A DNA stretch of 64,000 bases from Tenacibaculum larymnensis (GTDB lineage Bacteria > Bacteroidota > Bacteroidia > Flavobacteriales > Flavobacteriaceae). Location: the NCBI RefSeq assembly GCF_028829235.1, contig NZ_JAIWJY010000003.1, forward strand, positions 186,001 through 250,000, given 5' to 3'. A program made the translations under genes and the position numbers. The first letter of the stretch is position 1, and the number at the start of each line of letters is the position of its first letter. The notes beneath the pieces were generated by a model. The model did no database searches, was not told the origin of the DNA, and saw nothing but the letters and a program-made list of their open reading frames with translations. Positions 3,010 through 13,938 of the stretch are shown here, in pieces.

Positions 3010-3351
3010 GTGAAATTCTTGGTAGTTATATTATCCTTTTACTTTTTGGCACTTAATGTTGTGCCTTGTAGCGATGCAGAAAAGATTAATGACGATTCCC
3101 AAGTTGTTACGGTAACCGATTTTGAAGGTGACCACGACCAAGACTGCGAATTATGTTCGCCTTTCTGCCAATGTCATTGTTGCCACGTTCACACCATAAA
3201 TTTCGGGCTTGCTGTATTCGAGCCATTACAACCTGCAATTCTACACGAATTTTTCGCCAATTTTGATAACCTCGGCAAAGATATCCCACATTCCATTTTA
3301 CTGCCAACGGTTATAATTCAGTTTCCTAGAAGAGGTTTTTTTGATTTTTAA
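3010..3351 (+). CDS. Small Cys/His-rich exported protein (DUF6660-like)
   Basis: A 113-residue protein with an N-terminal hydrophobic signal-like segment (about residues 1-18) and a dense metal-ligand cluster in the middle: CELCSPFCQCHCCHVH, near residues 46-61. It resembles the uncharacterised DUF6660 family, found next to metal pumps in Flavobacteria. The Cys/His cluster suggests a periplasmic metal-binding role, but no function is known. The start is GTG, preceded by a TAnnTTTG box ending only four bases upstream, so the message may be leaderless. An overlapping ATG two bases upstream is in another frame and stops at once. It is followed by a second small exported protein under a like promoter. 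Confidence 0.72.
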   Translation: MKFLVVILSFYFLALNVVPCSDAEKINDDSQVVTVTDFEGDHDQDCELCSPFCQCHCCHVHTINFGLAVFEPLQPAILHEFFANFDNLGKDIPHSILLPTVIIQFPRRGFFDF

Positions 3352-3381
3352 TAAACATACTCAAGGATTGTCAAAATTACT

Positions 3382-3417
3382 TTGCACAACCTGTGCATCG
3401 ATTAATTTGTATCTTTG
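3382..3417 (+). promoter_or_regulatory. Promoter with overlapping dyad TGCACA-N3-TGTGCA
   Basis: A perfect inverted repeat at 3383-3397 (TGCACA, 3-base spacer, TGTGCA) is followed 12 bases later by TATCTTTG at 3410-3417, a match to TAnnTTTG. Dyad, spacing and the overlapping TTG repeat the layout at 2970-3005, so both promoters probably answer to the same regulator. Confidence 0.55.
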
Positions 3418-3426
3418 TCAAACTTT

Positions 3427-3822
3427 ATGAAAATATTCTTTTCCATATCAATGTCAATTTTATTCTTTTTTCAGGGAATTAGCATTGATATGGACTTTTG
3501 TGGACCAATTAAAGAAATTTCAAGCATTATTACCCATTATCAAGACCATAAAGTTTATGGAGACTCTTTCCTTGAATATGTAGTTGAAGATTACATTGAC
3601 AATGATGCAAAAAATGAAGGGCATCATAATAACCCAGATAAGGAGAATACACCAGTCCATTCCCATCATCAATGTTGTCACCCTTTAGTATTAATTATTG
3701 CGAACAACAATTCGGCTTTAACCAATCGACTAAAGTTTGAAGAGAAAAAACAGTTTAACTTACATAAAGTAAACTTCACTTCCAGATATCTGGAATCGCT
3801 TTTCCAACCCCCTAAAGTATAA
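3427..3822 (+). CDS. Small His/Cys-containing exported protein, unknown function
   Basis: A 131-residue protein starting at ATG 3427. A TTG four codons earlier overlaps the predicted -7 box and is therefore unlikely. Residues 1-20 form a hydrophobic signal-like stretch. The mature part is acidic and holds a His/Cys cluster (HSHHQCCHP) and a C-terminal FQPPKV. Small proteins of this style, ending in a PP motif, are common directly upstream of RND metal pumps in Bacteroidetes, and this gene sits 117 bases before such a pump gene. I do not recognise a named family with certainty. Periplasmic binding of Cu or Zn, or sensing for the pump, would fit the residues seen, but this is inference. Confidence 0.65.
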   Translation: MKIFFSISMSILFFFQGISIDMDFCGPIKEISSIITHYQDHKVYGDSFLEYVVEDYIDNDAKNEGHHNNPDKENTPVHSHHQCCHPLVLIIANNNSALTNRLKFEEKKQFNLHKVNFTSRYLESLFQPPKV

Positions 3823-3939: not shown

Positions 3940-6900
3940 ATGATTAACAAAATCATTTCATTTTCCATTAATAACAAGTTTATTATTGGGCTCTTTATAG
4001 TGGCACTTGTAGGTACGGGCATTTGGTCTATGGCCACTATAAATCTGGGTTCTGTACCCGATATTACCAACAACCAAGTACAGGTTATTACAGTTGCCCC
4101 AAATTTAGGTACTGAAGATATTGAGCAGTTTGTAACCTATCCGGTAGAATTGGCAATGGCAAATCTTCCTGATGTTATCGAACTGCGTTCGGTGTCTCGT
4201 TTTGGGTTGTCTGTAGTTACCATTGTTTTTAAGGACGAGGCAGGCACTTATCTTCCCCGGCAATTGGTGCAAGAGAAATTAACCGAAGTTGCTGGAGAAA
4301 TTCCTGAAGGCTTTGGTACGCCATTTATGGCACCAATAACTACAGGTCTGGGCGAAATTTACCAATACACCCTAAAACTAAAAGAGGGCTACGAAGATAA
4401 ATACGATGCAATGGAGCTTCGTACTATTCAAGATTGGATTGTAAAACGCCAAATGGCATTAGTTCCAGGAGTGGTCGAGGTCAATGCTTTTGGAGGGTAT
4501 GTGAAACAATATGAAGTGGCCATAAATCCTGATAAATTAAAAAGTTTTGGCATTACAATGAATCAGGTTTTTGAAGCCCTGAAAGTGAACAATGCCAATA
4601 CAGGTGGTGCTTATATCGAGAAAAACCACCAAGCAAATTTCATTCGCGGAGAAGGTTTGGCGCGTAGCATTGAAGATTTGGAAAACACCGTTGTAACCAC
4701 ACAAAACGGAAGCCCTGTTTTAGTGCGGGATGTCGCTGAAAAAGTGGGCTATGGGAATCAGGTGCGATATGGTGCGTTTACCCAAGATGGCCACGAATCT
4801 GTTGGTGGACAAATACTGATGCTGAAAGGCGAAAGTCCAAGTAACGTTATAGAAAATGTTGAAAAGCGCATTGTAGAAATCCAAAAATCCTTACCGGAAG
4901 GCGTTTATATTGATGCTTTTTTAAGTCGAAGTGAACTTATTGAGGCAACCACAAGTACCGTTAAAACAAATCTAATAGAAGGTGCCCTTATTGTCATATT
5001 TGTTTTGGTCTTGCTTTTAGGAAGCTTCCGTGGTGGCTTGATAGCAGCGTCGATAATCCCTTTATGCCTATTATTTGCATTTATTTTGATGAAACAATTT
5101 GGCATTTGGGCAAATTTAATGTCCTTGGGTGCGATCGATTTTGGGATTATTGTAGATGGTGCGGTGATTATCGTGGAAGGAGCGGTTTTCCACATTCATC
5201 AACGGATGAAAAAATCCACAACCGCCATTAACCAAGCTGAAATGGATGAAATCGCCTATGACTCTTCAAGTAAAATGATGAATTCTGCCTTCTTCGGTCA
5301 ACTAATTGTTCTTATAGTTTTTACACCTATTCTGTTTTTGACCGGTGTGGAAGGGAAAATGTTTCGACCAATGGCATTTACATTTGGTTTTGCCGTTTTA
5401 GGGGCAATTATTCTTTGCCTTACCTACGTACCAATGATGTCATCATTATTTTTAAAACCTGCTAAAAATCAAAATAGTTGGTTTGCCAAATTTGAAAACA
5501 AGATTGATAGGTTCAGTGATAAAATTATGGGGGTTCTGAATCGTATCTATCTGCCAATATTAAATTTTGCACTTCGCTTTAGGGCTGGTGTGGTTATAGG
5601 AGCGGTTTCATTGCTATTAATTGCAGGATTTGTATTTAGCAATATGGGAGCAGAATTTGTCCCGAAATTTGATGAAGGCGATATTGCCTTTCAAGCCTTG
5701 ATAAAACCAGGGAGCAGTCTTACAGAATCTATTGAGGCTTCAAAAAAACTTCAGAATTTAATCAATGAATTTCCAGAAGTAAAAACGGTAGTTTCAAGGA
5801 TTGGTGTGGCCGAAATACCAACAGACCCAATGCCTATGGATATTGCGGATAGTTATATTATTCTTGAAAAGGACAAGAGTAAATGGACATCCGCAGATAG
5901 TAAAGAAGAACTCATAGAAAAAATACAAGAAAAAATTTCAGTAGTGCCTGGTGTAAACTTTGTGTTTACACAACCTGTTGAACTTCGATTTAATGAATTG
6001 CTGACTGGCGTTCGTGAGGACGTAGCCATCAAATTATATGGAGAAGATTTAAACGTGTTGGCAGATAAGGTTCAGGAAATTGCTGCGGTCATACGGAAAG
6101 TTCCGGGTGCTGCAGACCTTAACGTAGAGGCTACAAGTGGTTTGCCCCAAATGACCGTGGTGTATAACCGCGCAAAAATGGCTCAATACGGAGTAACCGT
6201 TGACAAGCTGAATGATTATGTGAGTGCATCGTTTTCAGGAGAAGCCGCAGGTGTGATTTTTGAGGGCGAAAAACGCTTTGATGTGGTCATTCGTTTGGCG
6301 GAAGACTTTAGGCAAGACATCAACAGCCTTAAGAATTTGTATATCGATTTGCCAAACGGAGCGCAAGTGCCTTTAAAGGAAGTCGCGGACATCAGTTACA
6401 AACCAGGACCAATGCAGATTTCAAGGGACAATACCTCGCGGCGTATTTCGGTTGGTGTCAATGTTCGTGGGCGAGATGTAAAATCGATGGTTGAGGAGAT
6501 TCAGCAAAAACTGGAAACGGAAGTGAAACTGCCACCGGGATATTATGTTACTTACGGAGGGTCATTTGAAAACCTGCAACGTGCGTCAGACCGATTGATG
6601 ATCGTAGTCCCAATCGTTTTAATAACAATATTTGTTCTGCTTTACTTTGCTTTGAATTCATTTTCACAAGCCTTGATGATCTATATGGCGGTACCTTTGG
6701 CAGCCATAGGTGGCGTTTTCGTTTTGTGGATTCGTGGAATGCCTTTCAGTATTTCGGCGGGAGTCGGGTTTATCGTACTCTTCGGAGTTGCCGTATTAAA
6801 CGGCTTGATTCTTATAAACAAATTCAATGAACTAAAAGACAGTGGAATGACAGATATAAAAAAACGTATATACGAAGCTACGCACGAACGTTTACGTCCA

Positions 6901-8355
6901 ATTTTATTGACAGCCATTACAACAATTATGGGCTTTATCCCAATGGCGGTTTCCACCTCTGGTGGTGCCGAAGTACAACGACCATTGGCAACAGTAGTGA
7001 TTGGAGGAATGCTTACGGCAACCTTTCTGACCTTGGTGGTTATTCCTATTCTTTATTACTGGCTCGAATCGAGAAAAGAACGAAACAATAACGATGGAGC
7101 TATAAGCTATGTCAACAAATCAACTAACATTGTAACCGTATTATTGATGGTTGGCGGTTTGATGGCTTCTGGAACTGCTTTTGCCCAAGACACCAATGCA
7201 GATGGAACAATTCCAAAAACCTTGACCGTGGATGAGGCCATCGCTTTGGCAAAACAGAATTATCCTTCTCTTAAAGAAAGTCAAGCCTTTATAGAACGTG
7301 AACAGGCTATGAAAGGCACAAGTTTCGACTTGGGCAGTACGCAAGTTTTTACGGGAAAGGAAGAATATGGCAATAATCTTCCCGGAGTACAGACTACCAT
7401 TGGTGTGCAACAGGGCAACATTGATTTGCTTTCAGGATTTTCAAAATCGAAGTTTTACAAAGAGCGTATTGCCTTGGGAGAAAAGTTTTATGTGGCCAAT
7501 GAACAACAGTTGGTGCGCAATGTGATGCAAGCCTATGACCAAATTAATTATTACAAGGCACAGTTGCGTTTTGCAGAACAGCTGGATAGTGTTTATATTA
7601 ATTTTAGGGAGGCTGCTGAATTGCGTTATGAAACAGGGGAAACCGGGAAATTGGAATTTATTGCAGCATCTTCGGAATATCAGCAAATACAAGTATTAAA
7701 ACAACAAGCCTATGATGATATTGAAATTGCCAAACGTGCTTTAAAACAGTATTTGGGAACGGATGAAAGCATTGAAACGGTGAACGATTTTTACGAGCCA
7801 TTGGATTTTATGGCAAATTTGGATTCTACCTCGGTAGCAAACAACCCAATATTGCAATATGCGTTGCAGAACGCCGAAGTAAGTAAAGCAAATGTGGGCG
7901 TTGAAAAATCCCAATTCCTACCGAAATTTAATTTATCGTTCGGACGGCAAGTTGTGGATGATGTTTCAGGCTTTAATACCTATCAGGCAGGTATCAGTAT
8001 TCCGTTGTGGTTTTTTCCGCAGAAATCAAGGGTAAAGGCAGCCAAGGCAGATGCAATGGTCGCAGAAAATCAATATTTGGAGCAAAAGGCAACCACCGAA
8101 AGTAGGGTGTCGCAATTGTTCAAATCCCTTGAAAAAACGCGGAAAATATTGCAGTATTATGAAGAAGGCGCATTGCTTTTGGCGGAAGAACAAATAACCA
8201 CCGCAGAATTGGCATCCAAGGAAGGCGAAATAGATTATGTCAACTATATAACCATCCTTAACAGTGCCATCAGGATAAAGCAAACACATTTGGAATACAT
8301 CAATCAATACAACCAACAATCTATTGAGGTACAATATCAGTTGGGTAATCTATAA
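3940..8355 (+). CDS. CzcA/CusA-type heavy-metal RND pump fused to TolC-like outer-membrane factor
   Basis: A 1471-residue fusion. Residues 1 to about 1045 are an HME-family RND pump with 12 predicted membrane segments and two large periplasmic loops. Its fourth-helix motif DFGIIVDGAVIIVE carries the two Asp and one Glu typical of CzcA-like pumps for divalent Zn/Co/Cd; CusA lacks the first Asp. Residues from about 1083 to the end are an outer-membrane efflux protein (CzcC/TolC-like) rich in coiled-coil. Between them, residues 1068-1082 form a hydrophobic core ending GTAFA before QD, as in a type I signal peptide. Such fusions are known in Bacteroidetes; the internal signal could let signal peptidase release the TolC part in the periplasm. 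The adaptor gene follows after 17 bases. Confidence 0.92.
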   Translation: MINKIISFSINNKFIIGLFIVALVGTGIWSMATINLGSVPDITNNQVQVITVAPNLGTEDIEQFVTYPVELAMANLPDVIELRSVSRFGLSVVTIVFKDEAGTYLPRQLVQEKLTEVAGEIPEGFGTPFMAPITTGLGEIYQYTLKLKEGYEDKYDAMELRTIQDWIVKRQMALVPGVVEVNAFGGYVKQYEVAINPDKLKSFGITMNQVFEALKVNNANTGGAYIEKNHQANFIRGEGLARSIEDLENTVVTTQNGSPVLVRDVAEKVGYGNQVRYGAFTQDGHESVGGQILMLKGESPSNVIENVEKRIVEIQKSLPEGVYIDAFLSRSELIEATTSTVKTNLIEGALIVIFVLVLLLGSFRGGLIAASIIPLCLLFAFILMKQFGIWANLMSLGAIDFGIIVDGAVIIVEGAVFHIHQRMKKSTTAINQAEMDEIAYDSSSKMMNSAFFGQLIVLIVFTPILFLTGVEGKMFRPMAFTFGFAVLGAIILCLTYVPMMSSLFLKPAKNQNSWFAKFENKIDRFSDKIMGVLNRIYLPILNFALRFRAGVVIGAVSLLLIAGFVFSNMGAEFVPKFDEGDIAFQALIKPGSSLTESIEASKKLQNLINEFPEVKTVVSRIGVAEIPTDPMPMDIADSYIILEKDKSKWTSADSKEELIEKIQEKISVVPGVNFVFTQPVELRFNELLTGVREDVAIKLYGEDLNVLADKVQEIAAVIRKVPGAADLNVEATSGLPQMTVVYNRAKMAQYGVTVDKLNDYVSASFSGEAAGVIFEGEKRFDVVIRLAEDFRQDINSLKNLYIDLPNGAQVPLKEVADISYKPGPMQISRDNTSRRISVGVNVRGRDVKSMVEEIQQKLETEVKLPPGYYVTYGGSFENLQRASDRLMIVVPIVLITIFVLLYFALNSFSQALMIYMAVPLAAIGGVFVLWIRGMPFSISAGVGFIVLFGVAVLNGLILINKFNELKDSGMTDIKKRIYEATHERLRPILLTAITTIMGFIPMAVSTSGGAEVQRPLATVVIGGMLTATFLTLVVIPILYYWLESRKERNNNDGAISYVNKSTNIVTVLLMVGGLMASGTAFAQDTNADGTIPKTLTVDEAIALAKQNYPSLKESQAFIEREQAMKGTSFDLGSTQVFTGKEEYGNNLPGVQTTIGVQQGNIDLLSGFSKSKFYKERIALGEKFYVANEQQLVRNVMQAYDQINYYKAQLRFAEQLDSVYINFREAAELRYETGETGKLEFIAASSEYQQIQVLKQQAYDDIEIAKRALKQYLGTDESIETVNDFYEPLDFMANLDSTSVANNPILQYALQNAEVSKANVGVEKSQFLPKFNLSFGRQVVDDVSGFNTYQAGISIPLWFFPQKSRVKAAKADAMVAENQYLEQKATTESRVSQLFKSLEKTRKILQYYEEGALLLAEEQITTAELASKEGEIDYVNYITILNSAIRIKQTHLEYINQYNQQSIEVQYQLGNL

Positions 8356-8372: not shown

Positions 8373-9626
8373 ATGAAGAATATACTATTAGTAAGTACCG
8401 TATTATTTACACTTATGTTTATGAGTTGTAACGATGGCCAAAAATCTGAACTTGGGCATAACGAAGCTGAAGGCGTATCAAAAACCGAAGCAGGTGGCGA
8501 AGATGCACACGGCGAAGAAGGTCACGACGAAGAAGAAGGAGGCCATAGTGAGGAAGAAGGCGTTGTAGAACTTACAAAGCAACAGGCTGAAACCATCGGT
8601 TTGGAAATGAAACCTCTGGAGGAACGGAATTTAGGGAACAACATTAAGGTAACGGGTACGCTGGAACTTTACCCACAGGACAAGGCGAACATCAGTCCGT
8701 TTGTTGGTGGAAATGTGAGTTCCATAAAAGTTGTACCTGGAGATAACGTAAGCAAAGGACAGGTGCTTGCGTATATTGAGCATCCAGATATCATTGCAAT
8801 TCAACAGGATTATCAGGAAAAAAATGATGAACTGGTCTTTTTGAAACAGGATTTTGAGCGTAAGCAGACTCTTTATGATAAAGGTGTTTCTTCTGGCAAG
8901 GAATTTCAGATGGCGCAGTCAAAATTTCGTTCCACAACATCCAGCGTCAATGGTTTGCGTTCCCAATTGAGACTGTTGGGCATCAACCCGGACAAGGTGG
9001 CTGAAGGCCAAATATATTCCGCAGTTCCCATTATCACGCCCATAAGTGGCTATGTGGATGAAGTAATGATTAGTCTGGGCGATTATGTGGCACAACAATC
9101 CAAAATGTTCTCAATAAGCGATAATTCAAAGATTTATGTCAACTTCAAAGTATATGAGAAGGACATAAAGCAAATCAAGAAAGGGCAACAGATATATTTT
9201 TCAACGGCTTCTCGTCCGGACGAACTGCTTAAGGCAACCGTTAGGTCTGTTGGCAAAACCTTCAATACTGACCCAAAAGCATTGGAAGTTTTGGCAGATA
9301 TTGAGAACAAGGATAAAAACCTGTTGCCGGGTATGTACGTGGAAGGACGCATAGTGCAGGGCGAGAAAAAAGGTTTTGCAGTACCGGAAGCTGCCATTAT
9401 AAAAGAAGGCGAGCAATCCTTTATTTTTATTTTGGATGAAGATGAAGCAATGGAAGCGAACAAAATGAAATTTAAAATGGTACCCGTAACGGTTGGACTA
9501 ACTGATTTGGGCTTTGTTGAAGTCAATCTTCCTGCCGAAGTTTCAACGGATGCCAAAGTGGTCATCAAAGGAGCTTATAACCTGTCTTCTGAAATGGTTA
9601 AAGGCGAACTGGAACACGACCATTAA
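8373..9626 (+). CDS. CzcB/CusB-type periplasmic adaptor lipoprotein
   Basis: A 417-residue membrane-fusion protein that links the RND pump to its outer-membrane channel. The N-terminus is a lipoprotein signal with lipobox FMSC (Cys19). It is followed by a His/Glu-rich segment (about residues 25-65, with AHGEEGHDEE and EEGGHSEEE) that could bind divalent metal. After this come the biotinyl-lipoyl half motifs around an alpha-helical hairpin, a beta-barrel, and a membrane-proximal domain. The length is normal for the family. The gene follows the fused pump gene closely and completes the tripartite exporter together with the TolC part encoded in the fusion. The His-rich tail fits Zn/Co/Cd better than copper, in line with the pump's CzcA-like motif. 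Confidence 0.92.
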   Translation: MKNILLVSTVLFTLMFMSCNDGQKSELGHNEAEGVSKTEAGGEDAHGEEGHDEEEGGHSEEEGVVELTKQQAETIGLEMKPLEERNLGNNIKVTGTLELYPQDKANISPFVGGNVSSIKVVPGDNVSKGQVLAYIEHPDIIAIQQDYQEKNDELVFLKQDFERKQTLYDKGVSSGKEFQMAQSKFRSTTSSVNGLRSQLRLLGINPDKVAEGQIYSAVPIITPISGYVDEVMISLGDYVAQQSKMFSISDNSKIYVNFKVYEKDIKQIKKGQQIYFSTASRPDELLKATVRSVGKTFNTDPKALEVLADIENKDKNLLPGMYVEGRIVQGEKKGFAVPEAAIIKEGEQSFIFILDEDEAMEANKMKFKMVPVTVGLTDLGFVEVNLPAEVSTDAKVVIKGAYNLSSEMVKGELEHDH

Positions 9627-9741: not shown

Positions 9742-10080
9742 ATGAAGGAAATAAAAGCATTTATAAAACCGAACCGAATCCAAAGAGTCATTGAAGCACT
9801 ATCTGATAATGGGTTCAAAAGTATGACCCTTTCACAAGCTGAAGGCACTGGTGCATTCAAATCAAAAGGTGCAAGACCGTCGCTGGATTTTCACGTTACA
9901 GACAGTCCAGTGGTTAAGCTGGAACTGGTCTGCCAAAATGAGGAAGCCCAAGCAGCCATTGAAACAATTTTAAAAAATGGTAAAACTGAAGAACCAGGAG
10001 ATGGTATCATATACATAGCCAATATAGAGAATGCCTTTCAGATTAAAACGGGAGATTCCTTAAAACGGTACGACCTATAA
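9742..10080 (+). CDS. PII-like signalling protein linked to the metal pump
   Basis: A 112-residue protein of the PII/GlnB superfamily. It has the opening strand MKEIKAFIKPNRIQRVIEAL, a T-loop region with GTGAFKSKG, and the signature-like GDGIIYIANIENAFQIKTGD near the C-terminus. The T-loop differs from GlnB around the uridylylated Tyr, so control by GlnD is unlikely. A divergent PII group (called PII-NG) is known to neighbour metal RND pump genes, and this gene fits that description. Binding of a nucleotide or metal ion as a signal for pump activity is an inference. It follows the adaptor gene after 115 bases with no gene between, and a Fur-like regulator comes next. Confidence 0.8.
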   Translation: MKEIKAFIKPNRIQRVIEALSDNGFKSMTLSQAEGTGAFKSKGARPSLDFHVTDSPVVKLELVCQNEEAQAAIETILKNGKTEEPGDGIIYIANIENAFQIKTGDSLKRYDL

Positions 10081-10095
10081 AACATTTTAGTGCAA

Positions 10096-10518
10096 ATGGA
10101 AAAAATAGTCCAACTTCTGGAAAGCAAAGGAATACGACCTACGGCAATGCGCCTAATGACCTACAAACGTTTGGCAGAATTAGAGGTGGCCATCAGTCTT
10201 GGCGATTTGGAAAAGGATTTTAAGGTCAGTGAAAGAAGCACCCTATTTAGGACTATGAAAGCGTTTGAGGAAAAAGGTATTGTACATCAAATTGAGGATG
10301 GGACAGGTGTTATAAAATACGCCCTTTGCGAAGAAAATTGTGAGTGCGAGGTTGGCAACGACCTTCATTTACACTTTCATTGCAACAATTGTAATGAAAC
10401 TGTCTGTTTAACAGAGCATAAAATCCCTCATATCAACTTACCTGATGGCTACATTACCGAGGACATTAACTTGGTGGTAAAGGGTATTTGCGAAAAATGC
10501 AGCGACAATCTGGATTAA
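10096..10518 (+). CDS. Fur-family transcriptional regulator (copy 1)
   Basis: A 140-residue DNA-binding metalloregulator. The N-terminal winged helix contains GIRPTAMRLMTYKRLAELE and the recognition region SERSTLFRTMKAFEEKG. The C-terminal part has HLHFHCNNCNETVCL and GICEKC, giving two CxxC pairs that probably hold a structural zinc, as in Fur/Zur proteins. Start chosen at ATG 10096; a GTG two codons earlier is possible. The position after the pump genes and before a P1B-4 ATPase suggests control of one or both groups by zinc or a related ion. It resembles a second Fur-like protein encoded at 13501, and both carry the HLHFHC signature. Which operators they bind is not visible. Confidence 0.88.
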   Translation: MEKIVQLLESKGIRPTAMRLMTYKRLAELEVAISLGDLEKDFKVSERSTLFRTMKAFEEKGIVHQIEDGTGVIKYALCEENCECEVGNDLHLHFHCNNCNETVCLTEHKIPHINLPDGYITEDINLVVKGICEKCSDNLD

Positions 10519-10562: not shown

Positions 10563-10925
10563 ATGATAACAATCTATAAAAAAGAGGCTACTGTATATAT
10601 GGTGGCAGAGAATAAGCTGGATGCCAAGGATTATGAAAACTTGATACCGGTCTTAATAGAACATATAACTGCATATCAGGAAGTTTCTTGGTACATCGAA
10701 ATGCATAATTTTGAAGGCTGGACGGCAAACGCATATTGGAAGGGCATTGAGTTAAATCTTCCGAATGAAACGCATTTAAAGCGTGTTGCTTTAGTGGGTA
10801 GCGTTAAATGGCAGGAGCAATTTACCGAGGCATTGCTTCCTTTTTCAGAAGCTCATATAAAATTTTATAAGCCAGAAGAAAAAGACGATGCCAAAGAATG
10901 GATAAAAAAAAATAGTAAAAAATGA
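10563..10925 (+). CDS. SpoIIAA-like (STAS) protein, copy 1
   Basis: A 120-residue soluble protein resembling the SpoIIAA-like family (STAS/SEC14 fold). It has the characteristic central WYIEMHNFEGW, then RVALVGSVKWQEQF, and FYKPEEKDDAKEWIKK at the C-terminus. Family members have structures resembling anti-sigma-factor antagonists, but their role is unknown. Its stop codon overlaps the start of the following P1B-4 ATPase gene (ATGA), so the two are translationally coupled and probably act together. A second, clearly related copy lies at 15547 in the same island. No phosphorylatable Ser like that of SpoIIAA is obvious at the usual site, which argues against a classic partner-switching role. Confidence 0.8.
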   Translation: MITIYKKEATVYMVAENKLDAKDYENLIPVLIEHITAYQEVSWYIEMHNFEGWTANAYWKGIELNLPNETHLKRVALVGSVKWQEQFTEALLPFSEAHIKFYKPEEKDDAKEWIKKNSKK

Positions 10926-13450
10926 AAAAAATACAACTAAAAATTCCAGTTATCCTTCCGCAAGTTCCAAACGAAAAAGATACTTGTGTTGAGCGGCTTA
11001 TAAAAGAATTACAGGCTAAAGAGGGCATCGAAAAAGTACACGTTGCCGATACAAAGGAAGATGACACACCACAGCTCTGTTTTCATTATGACCCCGATAT
11101 CATTTCTATAGACCGCATTCAATCTCTCGCAGAACAGACGGGTGCCGAGATTACCGAAAAATACGGGCATTTGCTCATAGAGGTTAAAGGAATCAGACAT
11201 ACAAGACAGGCACGTTCCATAGAGAAAAGTCTTTTGGCAATCAATGGGGTTTTGGAGGCTTCCGTTTCGGCCTCTGGAATGGTGCGCCTTGAGTTTGATA
11301 AAAAGCAAACAAATTTTGATGAAATAAGTAAACAGATTGAAAAGGAAGACCTTCAGGTTCAGCGGAGTTCTTCAAACGAAAATAATTACACCGAAGCATC
11401 CAAAAAAAAACAGGAACGTTCAAAGAAGGAAGATACTAAAGAGCAAACTTCCACAGAGGGCCACGAGCACAAGGAGGGCGAGACCCACGAGGAAGGAGAA
11501 GAGCACGCCCATGGTGGGGTTTTCGGTAAAAATACGGAGCTTATTTTTTCCATTATCTGTGGGGCACTTCTCGGGATAGGTTTCGGGCTTTCTTATGTGG
11601 AATCCATCCCAGATTGGGTCAGTCTTACTTTGTACATTGGCGCGTACTTTTTCGGTGGTTTCTTTACGGCCAAGGAAGCGGTTCAAACTGTGGCCAAGGG
11701 TGGTTTTGAAATTGATTTTTTAATGCTGGTCGCTGCCATTGGTGCCGCCATTCTGGGAGAATGGGCAGAAGGTGCACTGTTGTTGTTTTTATTTAGCCTT
11801 GGGCACGCCTTGGAACATTACGCAATGAACAAAGCAAGAAAAAGCATTGCTGCGCTTGCAGACCTTGCACCAAAAACAGCATTGCTTAAAAAAGATGGCA
11901 AGACCGAAGAAGTTGGAATTGAGCAATTGAGTATTGGCGATATTATAGTGGTCAAGCCCAATAGTAAAATATCCGCAGATGGCGTCGTGGTCAACGGAAA
12001 AAGCAGTGTAAACCAGGCCCCTATTACTGGGGAAAGTGTACCCGTGGATAAACTTCCCGTGGAAGATACAGGCAGGGACTATTCGGCAGACGATGATATT
12101 AAGGATGAAAATCGGGTATTTGCCGGAACTATCAACGGTAATAACACGCTGGAAATAAAGGTAATCAAAGAAGCCAAAGACTCTACCCTGTCCCGACTGG
12201 TCAAATTGGTCAACGAGGCACAGACCCAGAAGTCCCCCACGCAACTGCTGACCGATAAGTTCGAAAAATACTTTGTGCCATCCGTACTGATACTGGTTGG
12301 TATCCTACTCTTTGCCTTTCTGGTCATTGACGAACCGTTTAGTGCCAGCTTTTATCGTGCAATGGCGGTATTGGTAGCTGCAAGTCCCTGTGCACTGGCC
12401 ATTTCAACACCAAGTGCCGTATTGAGCGGTGTGGCAAGGGCAGCACGTGGCGGCGTGCTCATCAAAGGTGGGCGACCACTTGAGGATTTAGGGGTCATAA
12501 CCGCTTTGGCTTTTGATAAAACAGGCACGCTTACCGAAGGCAAGCCCAAACTTACCGAAGTAGTACCATTGGGGGATATTGAAGAAAATGAACTGTTAAA
12601 GATAGCCGTTGCCGTTGAAAACTTGAGCGACCACCCTTTGGCCAAAGCCGTCGTAAGGGATGGGAAAGAGCGTCTGAAAGGTACTGATATTATCGATGCG
12701 TCAGATTTGGAAGCAGTTCTCGGAAAAGGTATCAAAGCTTCTTTGGGCAAGGATAAAATCTATATTGGAAACCTTGACTTGTACGAAGACCTCGATGAAG
12801 CAAAACCATCCGAAGATATATCGAATAAAGTAAAAGAACTTGAAGGTGGTGGAAATACTACGATGCTCATAAGAAGGAACAAAGAATATATAGGTATCAT
12901 CGCCCTGATGGACACCCCACGGGAAGCGGCCAAGGAAACACTGAAAAAATTAAAGGAAATCGGTATCAAGCGGATGATAATGCTAACCGGGGATAATCAA
13001 AAGGTTGCCGATGCCGTTGCTAAAGAAATTGGGTTGACCGATGCCTGGGGAAGCCTGTTGCCAGAGGAAAAGGTAGATGCCATTAAAAAATTAAAAGAAC
13101 AGGAATCCAAAGTCGCAATGGTAGGCGACGGTGTGAACGATGCCCCTGCAATGGCAAACAGCACAGTAGGTATCGCAATGGGTGCAGCGGGCAGTGATGT
13201 GGCCTTGGAAACTGCAGACATTGCCCTAATGGCCGATAAATTGGAAACCCTGCCCTTTGCCATAGGCTTGAGCAGGAAGGCAAAGGCAATTATCAAGCAA
13301 AACCTTTGGGTAAGCCTCGGTATTGTGGCATTGCTTATCCCATCGACCATTATGGGTTGGGCCAATATCGGTATTGCAGTGGTCATCCACGAAGGCTCAA
13401 CATTACTTGTGGTTTTTAATGCGTTAAGGCTTTTGGCTTATAAGAAATAG
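10922..13450 (+). CDS. P1B-4-type metal-exporting ATPase with degenerate HMA domains and His-rich linker
   Basis: An 842-residue pump. Residues 1-150 look like two HMA-like folds without a CxxC motif, so they should not bind metal in the usual way. They are followed by a charged linker with His/Glu repeats (EGHEHKEGE, EEHAHGG; about residues 175-200). Catalytic motifs are TGESVP, DKTGTLTEG, SDHPLAKA and GDGVND. The metal-site motif is SPC rather than CPC (AASPCALAIS), and the last helix has HEGST; both are marks of the P1B-4 class, which exports Co, Zn, Cd or Fe. It is translationally coupled to the STAS protein upstream. Automatic annotation would probably call it ZntA/CadA; the SPC/HEGST pair argues for P1B-4. 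Confidence 0.9.
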   Translation: MKKIQLKIPVILPQVPNEKDTCVERLIKELQAKEGIEKVHVADTKEDDTPQLCFHYDPDIISIDRIQSLAEQTGAEITEKYGHLLIEVKGIRHTRQARSIEKSLLAINGVLEASVSASGMVRLEFDKKQTNFDEISKQIEKEDLQVQRSSSNENNYTEASKKKQERSKKEDTKEQTSTEGHEHKEGETHEEGEEHAHGGVFGKNTELIFSIICGALLGIGFGLSYVESIPDWVSLTLYIGAYFFGGFFTAKEAVQTVAKGGFEIDFLMLVAAIGAAILGEWAEGALLLFLFSLGHALEHYAMNKARKSIAALADLAPKTALLKKDGKTEEVGIEQLSIGDIIVVKPNSKISADGVVVNGKSSVNQAPITGESVPVDKLPVEDTGRDYSADDDIKDENRVFAGTINGNNTLEIKVIKEAKDSTLSRLVKLVNEAQTQKSPTQLLTDKFEKYFVPSVLILVGILLFAFLVIDEPFSASFYRAMAVLVAASPCALAISTPSAVLSGVARAARGGVLIKGGRPLEDLGVITALAFDKTGTLTEGKPKLTEVVPLGDIEENELLKIAVAVENLSDHPLAKAVVRDGKERLKGTDIIDASDLEAVLGKGIKASLGKDKIYIGNLDLYEDLDEAKPSEDISNKVKELEGGGNTTMLIRRNKEYIGIIALMDTPREAAKETLKKLKEIGIKRMIMLTGDNQKVADAVAKEIGLTDAWGSLLPEEKVDAIKKLKEQESKVAMVGDGVNDAPAMANSTVGIAMGAAGSDVALETADIALMADKLETLPFAIGLSRKAKAIIKQNLWVSLGIVALLIPSTIMGWANIGIAVVIHEGSTLLVVFNALRLLAYKK

Positions 13451-13500: not shown

Positions 13501-13938
13501 ATGACTAAAACGGAAAAGATACTATTAAATCACGGTATTCGACCTACTCAAATGAGGTTGAAGATATACAAGTTCCTGAAAAGGAAGCAAAGTGCCGTGT
13601 CCTTTTCCGATTTGAAAAAGGCTTTTGTTCAAAAGAGCGAAACCAATAAAACAGCAAACAGAACGACATTTTATCGAAATCTCAAGATTTTCGAGGATAA
13701 AGGGCTGATTCATCAGATTAATGATGGGGTCGGAGTGGCAAAATATGCTATTTCTGATGAAAACGCCAAAGATAAATACGGTATAGATTTACATCTGCAT
13801 TTTCATTGTACCGATTGCAGAAGAACAATCTGTTTACCGAATAAGATATCGAAAGAAAGCTTGCCAGACGATTATGAAGTGAGAAATGTGAACCTGATAT
13901 TAAAGGGAATATGTGAAAAATGCAGGCAAAAATATTAG
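13501..13938 (+). CDS. Fur-family transcriptional regulator (copy 2)
   Basis: A 145-residue regulator with a winged helix at the N-terminus (GIRPTQMRLKIYKFLKRK, then NRTTFYRNLKIFEDKGL) and a zinc-binding C-terminus with HLHFHCTDCRRTICL and GICEKC. It is similar in layout to the product of 10096-10518, and both are shorter in the dimerisation domain than classic Fur. The gene comes 50 bases after the P1B-4 ATPase gene and 81 bases before an amino-acid-permease-like gene. The presence of two paralogues in one island suggests that two metals or two thresholds are sensed. No binding site can be assigned. Confidence 0.87.
   Translation: MTKTEKILLNHGIRPTQMRLKIYKFLKRKQSAVSFSDLKKAFVQKSETNKTANRTTFYRNLKIFEDKGLIHQINDGVGVAKYAISDENAKDKYGIDLHLHFHCTDCRRTICLPNKISKESLPDDYEVRNVNLILKGICEKCRQKY

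Follow-up and report, generated by a model that had tools for sequence, protein, structure and literature searches.

A predicted signal peptide at the junction of an RND pump and a TolC/CusC-type channel encoded by one gene in Tenacibaculum larymnensis and other Bacteroidota

A single gene in the window, which is the whole 64,000-nucleotide stretch of Tenacibaculum larymnensis DNA that was analysed, encodes both a heavy-metal RND pump and a TolC/CusC-type channel (OMF), and the segment that joins the two has the features of a signal peptide. This junction signal peptide is kept in over 200 relatives. The fusion is very probably a polyprotein from which pump and channel are made 1:1 and then separated by signal peptidase I, although cleavage in the cell is what we infer. 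A cut by signal peptidase I at this junction had been proposed in the initial annotation of the window, and it is supported here by the conservation of the site, by split homologues, by RND proteins that end without the segment, and by the start of TolC.

The czcA/cusA-OMF fusion gene occupies positions 3940..8355 of the + strand as a single open frame of 1471 aa. Its RND pump part, residues 1-1052 (3940..7095, +), belongs to the CusA/CzcA family, for which 12 TM helices are expected. On these residues the full TIGR00914 model scores 1164 bits, compared with its curated cut-off of 701. The PF00873 match of a Pfam profile search spans residues 5-1042 of the fusion protein, and the RND profile stops only a few residues short of where solved CusA ends. 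The RND half is thus predicted to be a complete CusA/CzcA-type heavy-metal pump, with metal transport as its predicted function. The last ~390 residues are matched by PF02321 with 155 bits, which identifies them as OMF. The mature TolC/CusC-type OMF would comprise residues 1083-1471 (7186..8352, +), and its first OMF helix starts at L1095 (7222). The periplasmic adaptor of the same pump (CusB/HlyD type, PF16576) has its own gene at 8373..9626 on the + strand. Two further RND-OMF fusions, of 1441 and 1463 aa, are encoded in the T. larymnensis genome, as is a signal peptidase I.

In the window protein, L1068-A1082 (LLMVGGLMASGTAFA, bases 7141-7185) is followed directly by Q1083-D1084, and the predicted cut, GTAFA/QD (a slash marks the cut here and below), falls between bases 7185 and 7186. 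The initial annotation had described a hydrophobic core at residues 1068-1082 ending in GTAFA before QD; these residues and their placement are correct, and the reading frame is open over 3940-8355. The segment can be divided into an n-region or cytoplasmic linker, which is K-rich in the family (residues 1045-1063, RKERNNNDGAISYVNKSTN, 7072..7128, +), an h-region (residues 1064-1076, IVTVLLMVGGLMA, 7129..7167, +; family core at -16..-7), and a c-region, SGTAFA, with A at -3 and -1 (residues 1077-1082, 7168..7185, +). Q1083 (7186..7188, +) would be the +1 residue of the cut A1082/Q1083, in keeping with the Q-rule of this phylum (PMC5837995). The basic residues that had been noted before the core are indeed there (R1045, K1046, R1048, and K1060), but E1047 and D1052 dilute them and leave the n-region only weakly positive. 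For this reason, the window junction is missed by a strict rule that demands a net charge of +1 or more immediately ahead of the core, and the weakly basic n-region of the window protein counts against the cleavage reading. Judged across the family, the junction possesses the sequence features of a signal peptidase I substrate, namely n-, h-, and c-regions and the +1 Gln. Two mature proteins in one frame with a signal sequence between them correspond to a polyprotein of the FbcH type.

The conservation of the site was examined in a survey that covered 296 genomes sampled from the phylum and 97 relatives and that yielded 127 distinct fusions and 27 unfused OMFs. The dipeptide [A/G/S/T]-Q is found at the site in 124 of the 127 fusions. 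The longer motif small-x-[AGS]-Q lies directly after the core in 119, and a further five combine [A/T]Q with a bulky residue at -3. Because only 0.06-0.18 occurrences of the four-residue motif per 20 residues are expected elsewhere in the same proteins, the conservation at the junction is beyond chance. The +1 Gln is absent in three fusions, L167 (AEA/C), L174 (AHA/D), and L138 (LYG/K), which are counted against the cleavage reading. In an alignment of 70 sequences, consisting of the window protein and 69 named fusions chosen on RND peptide patterns and therefore without regard to the site, all 70 have the +1 Gln, which is one of only five invariant columns, and -1 is A, G, S, or T in every one of them. 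A looser pattern is matched by 80/80 fusions in a separate scan of named genomes. The check set beforehand, which concerned conservation of the site among fusions, thus found it nearly universal throughout the phylum, also in classes other than Bacteroidia; one other class, sampled as a possible low-Q-rule control, also has Gln in 18 of its 21 fusions. The strict rule with the +1 Gln picks out the junction in 107/127 fusions and gives 32 matches elsewhere in 114,149 aa, and it becomes unspecific once the +1 Gln requirement is dropped. A home-made cleavage-site weight matrix, built from 36 poorly chosen N-termini, did not single out the junction, that of the window ranking 11th; its training set was too contaminated for the matrix to be informative, and it is given no weight here.

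A column profile anchored on the site was calculated from 64 representatives with less than 60% identity. The fraction of K/R in the n-region is about 0.2-0.4 at positions -28 to -19, while D/E are missing from -21 to -8 and make up at most 2% of any column down to -1. Mean hydropathy in the core exceeds 1.5 only at -15 to -7, and the Leu-rich family core at -16..-7 makes a strongly hydrophobic stretch of only about 10 columns. It is followed by Ser/Pro at -6, A/V/S/G at -3, and A (53), S (8), or G (3) at -1, and then by Q. Between the window protein and its relative L020, identity is 477/499 in the RND part and 310/389 in the OMF, compared with 12/34 in the junction. In 64 independent pairs, mean identity is 92% at the RND end, 48% in the signal-peptide body, and 75% in the OMF; the identity of 1.00 for the +1 Gln in these pairs follows from how the comparison was constructed and is given no weight. 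A fast-drifting core next to a fixed cleavage motif points to a signal peptide, since A-x-A/Q would be purposeless in a structural tether.

The junction had also been likened to the start of a free OMF, and split homologues bear this out by carrying the same element N-terminally. In 14 unfused cases, the OMF gene lies directly downstream of a stand-alone RND gene of about 1050 aa, and the gene order at split loci, RND-OMF-adaptor (MFP), is the same as in the fused operon. The split OMFs open with Met and the same kind of signal peptide as the fused junction. The same element can be recognised in fused L065 (MKFSKKTNYKKLSVFLLLISFGTYQAQ) and split L105 (MKFSNYHKKFTAILFLIISGILSAQ), and in split L097 (MKTSISTIFLLLISSFSLAQ) and fused L044 (MKTPIITVIILLISAFSFAQ); the pair of fused L083 and split L097 behaves likewise, with the RND stop codon in frame. 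Stand-alone CzcA-type RND proteins end about 0-16 residues past the last helix and have no hydrophobic tail, which assigns the junction segment to the OMF. A 98-row tree of the OMFs requires 11 changes of the fused label, and the strongly supported (starred) branches alone force at least seven changes for split and at least eight for fused; the tree is a quick one with SH-aLRT support only and some long branches, and it gives no direction of change. The fused and split states accordingly interchange at least seven times on this tree, and for many of these changes the junction element is, on one of the two sides, by its sequence an ordinary predicted signal peptide.

From these data a sequence of events can be proposed. 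The RND half would insert into the inner membrane and leave its C-terminus on the cytoplasmic side, and the junction would then restart Sec translocation, oriented N in and C out like an N-terminal signal peptide, and would bring the OMF half across to the periplasm. A cut by signal peptidase I would follow after A1082, and glutaminyl cyclase would probably cap Q1083 to give pyroglutamate. The freed OMF would trimerise and proceed to the outer membrane, and on the pump the signal peptide would remain as a short hydrophobic stub, the 13th such segment, unless this is trimmed. A single translation event would deliver pump and channel 1:1, the ratio for 3:6:3 assembly, and the adaptor, needed 2:1, would remain a separate gene. 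The fixed ratio is plausible as a consequence of one gene, because 3:6:3 pumps need RND and OMF 1:1, and a stoichiometric benefit could follow. It is unlikely that cleavage serves beyond this as an assembly switch, in which the uncut junction would hold the nascent OMF by its own pump, release would come only after pump insertion, pump and channel would be matched in cis, and the stub would be kept as a 13th helix with a periplasmic C-terminus.

A different fate of the same segment would be that of a signal anchor, an uncut 13th transmembrane helix by which the OMF stays tethered to the pump. The segment is hydrophobic, its orientation is right, the gene is fused, and the computed data contain no observed cut. 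Nevertheless, a tether needs no A-x-A/Q, yet the +1 Gln is found in 70/70 fusions while the body of the helix drifts, the strongly hydrophobic core covers no more than about 10 columns, and the same element heads the split OMFs. The geometry of the pump also weighs heavily here. An AlphaFold model of residues 1049-1471, made with the 70-row alignment, has a pLDDT of 89, which falls below about 55 in the junction helix and linker. Compared with the PDB, it gives Z 26.8 to CusC (3pik) and Z 25.8 to TolC (1ek9), and with values of Z 25-27 to TolC, CusC, and OprM it has the two-repeat beta-hairpin/long-helix fold of OMFs. Residue 47 of the model, L1095, is aligned with residue 1 in mature E. coli TolC, so that the predicted cut lies 12 residues ahead of the start of free TolC. 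In assembled pumps, the periplasmic part of the RND protein measures 7 nm, the adaptor-filled gap 6 nm, and the periplasmic part of the OMF 10 nm, and RND and OMF make no mutual contact (PMC4754349); the first OMF helix lies in the equatorial domain, mid-barrel (PMC8277102, PMC3017539). An uncut tether would have to span 7 nm, 6 nm, and half of the 10-nm OMF, or about 18 nm from the inner membrane to the equatorial domain. Across the family, the linker from the site to the first OMF helix has a median of 6 and a minimum of 2 residues, the median corresponding to about 2 nm. In most members, then, the protein must either be cleaved or adopt a wholly different architecture, and the signal anchor is a very improbable explanation.

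Still less probable is partial or regulated cleavage with roles for both the fused and the free form, for example an uncut form that keeps the OMF close to the pump while the complex assembles. Cutting of internal signal peptides can be slow and is sometimes inefficient, which counts against full cleavage, and the fused state is widespread and recurrent. On the other hand, the computed data hold no evidence for a function of the uncut form, and the geometry excludes it from the canonical assembled pump. The least credible explanation, that the OMF is made from an internal start codon within the fused gene and the fusion product is a by-product, can draw on an in-frame Met at the split-OMF start position in some fusions (L065, L083), but Met occurs in the n-region of 27/71 representatives (38%) as against 31% in arbitrary 19-residue windows, the n-region of the window protein has no in-frame start, the only in-frame ATGs nearby, at 7147 and 7162, fall within the core and a start at either would lack an n-region, and the absence of a stop codon is conserved in most lineages.

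The reading as a polyprotein cut by signal peptidase I has a precedent in FbcH of Bradyrhizobium japonicum, a cytochrome b/c1 polyprotein that is cut at an internal signal sequence. In both systems, one bacterial gene would encode an inner-membrane protein and a translocated protein, with an internal signal sequence after the last helix and proteolytic separation. They differ in that both FbcH products remain in one inner-membrane complex, whereas the RND-OMF channel must reach the outer membrane; here, moreover, an RND pump is paired with an OMF, in an arrangement that is phylum-wide and recurrent. What is new is therefore this phylum-wide reach and the destination of the products in two membranes, the principle being already known from cytochrome b/c1. 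The fusion resembles CusCBA/CzcCBA in its RND half of the CusA/CzcA family, its OMF half of CusC/TolC fold, and its adjacent adaptor gene. CusC of E. coli is a protein of its own whose N-terminal Cys is lipidated (PMC3017539), and thus a product of signal peptidase II, whereas in the fusion the OMF extends CusA at its C-terminus and has a signal-peptidase-I site. The junction of L167 / L260 (G168:C2), ...SYSAEA/C, might be of the lipoprotein type (signal peptidase II) like CusC/OprM, although its -3 Ala is untypical of a lipobox. Under the Bacteroidetes Q-rule, Gln follows an A-x-A signal-peptidase-I site at +1 and is capped to pyroglutamate, with a mean Q-value of 71% (PMC5837995); signal-peptidase-I substrates with +1 Gln have also been described in PMC10653852. 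The RND-OMF site shares A-x-A/Q with these substrates, but the described ones are N-terminal, and this site has its Gln at residue 1083 of a polytopic protein.

The 80 fusions in named genomes come from Flavobacteriia, Bacteroidia, Cytophagia, Sphingobacteriia, and Chitinophagia, and from single Chlorobiota and Ignavibacteriota assemblies. Among the plasmid matches listed, those in which a single place covers at least 80% of the protein belong to Bacteroidota only, and the matches from other phyla stop near residue 1048-1099, which is the pump end. RND-OMF fusion genes are already visible in databases, and nearly all are annotated whole as 'CusA/CzcA family heavy metal efflux RND transporter'. 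The OMF half is left unnamed by standard annotation on NZ_CP021236.1, NC_015511.1, NC_015704.1, and others, so that genomes with CzcA pumps may seem to lack a channel. A literature search, for which most subscription journals were out of reach, found no paper on RND-OMF fusions or on processing at their junction. Two RND-type frames of 1257 and 1280 aa, L005 and L006 (G000:C12:273696 and G000:C23:166120), carry long extra sequence between the matched blocks and not at the C-terminus.

Heavy-metal RND pumps occur widely in Bacteroidota. Among the surveyed ones that have a channel attached to them or next to them, most appear to be synthesised as precursors of proteins for two different membranes, of which annotation names the pump only. 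If the processing is true, missing-channel puzzles in these genomes would be solved, the enforced 1:1 synthesis of pump and channel would offer a natural testable system, and internal signal peptides would become a recognised bacterial route to polyproteins. Signal-peptide prediction limited to N-termini misses exported domains of this kind.

The surroundings of the pump operon were also inspected. Upstream, at 3010-3822, lie two small Cys/His-rich predicted secreted proteins that could be periplasmic metal binders; the first is DUF6660 and the second has no Pfam match. Two P-type metal ATPases, recognised by eye, flank the operon at 11-1912 and 10922-13450, and together with the pump and two Fur-like regulators at 10090-10518 and 13501-13938 (also by eye) they would form a metal-resistance island. 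Directly after the operon and before the Fur-like regulators, positions 9742-10080 encode what appears by eye to be a small PII-like signalling protein, and PII-like proteins adjoining metal-efflux operons may merit attention.
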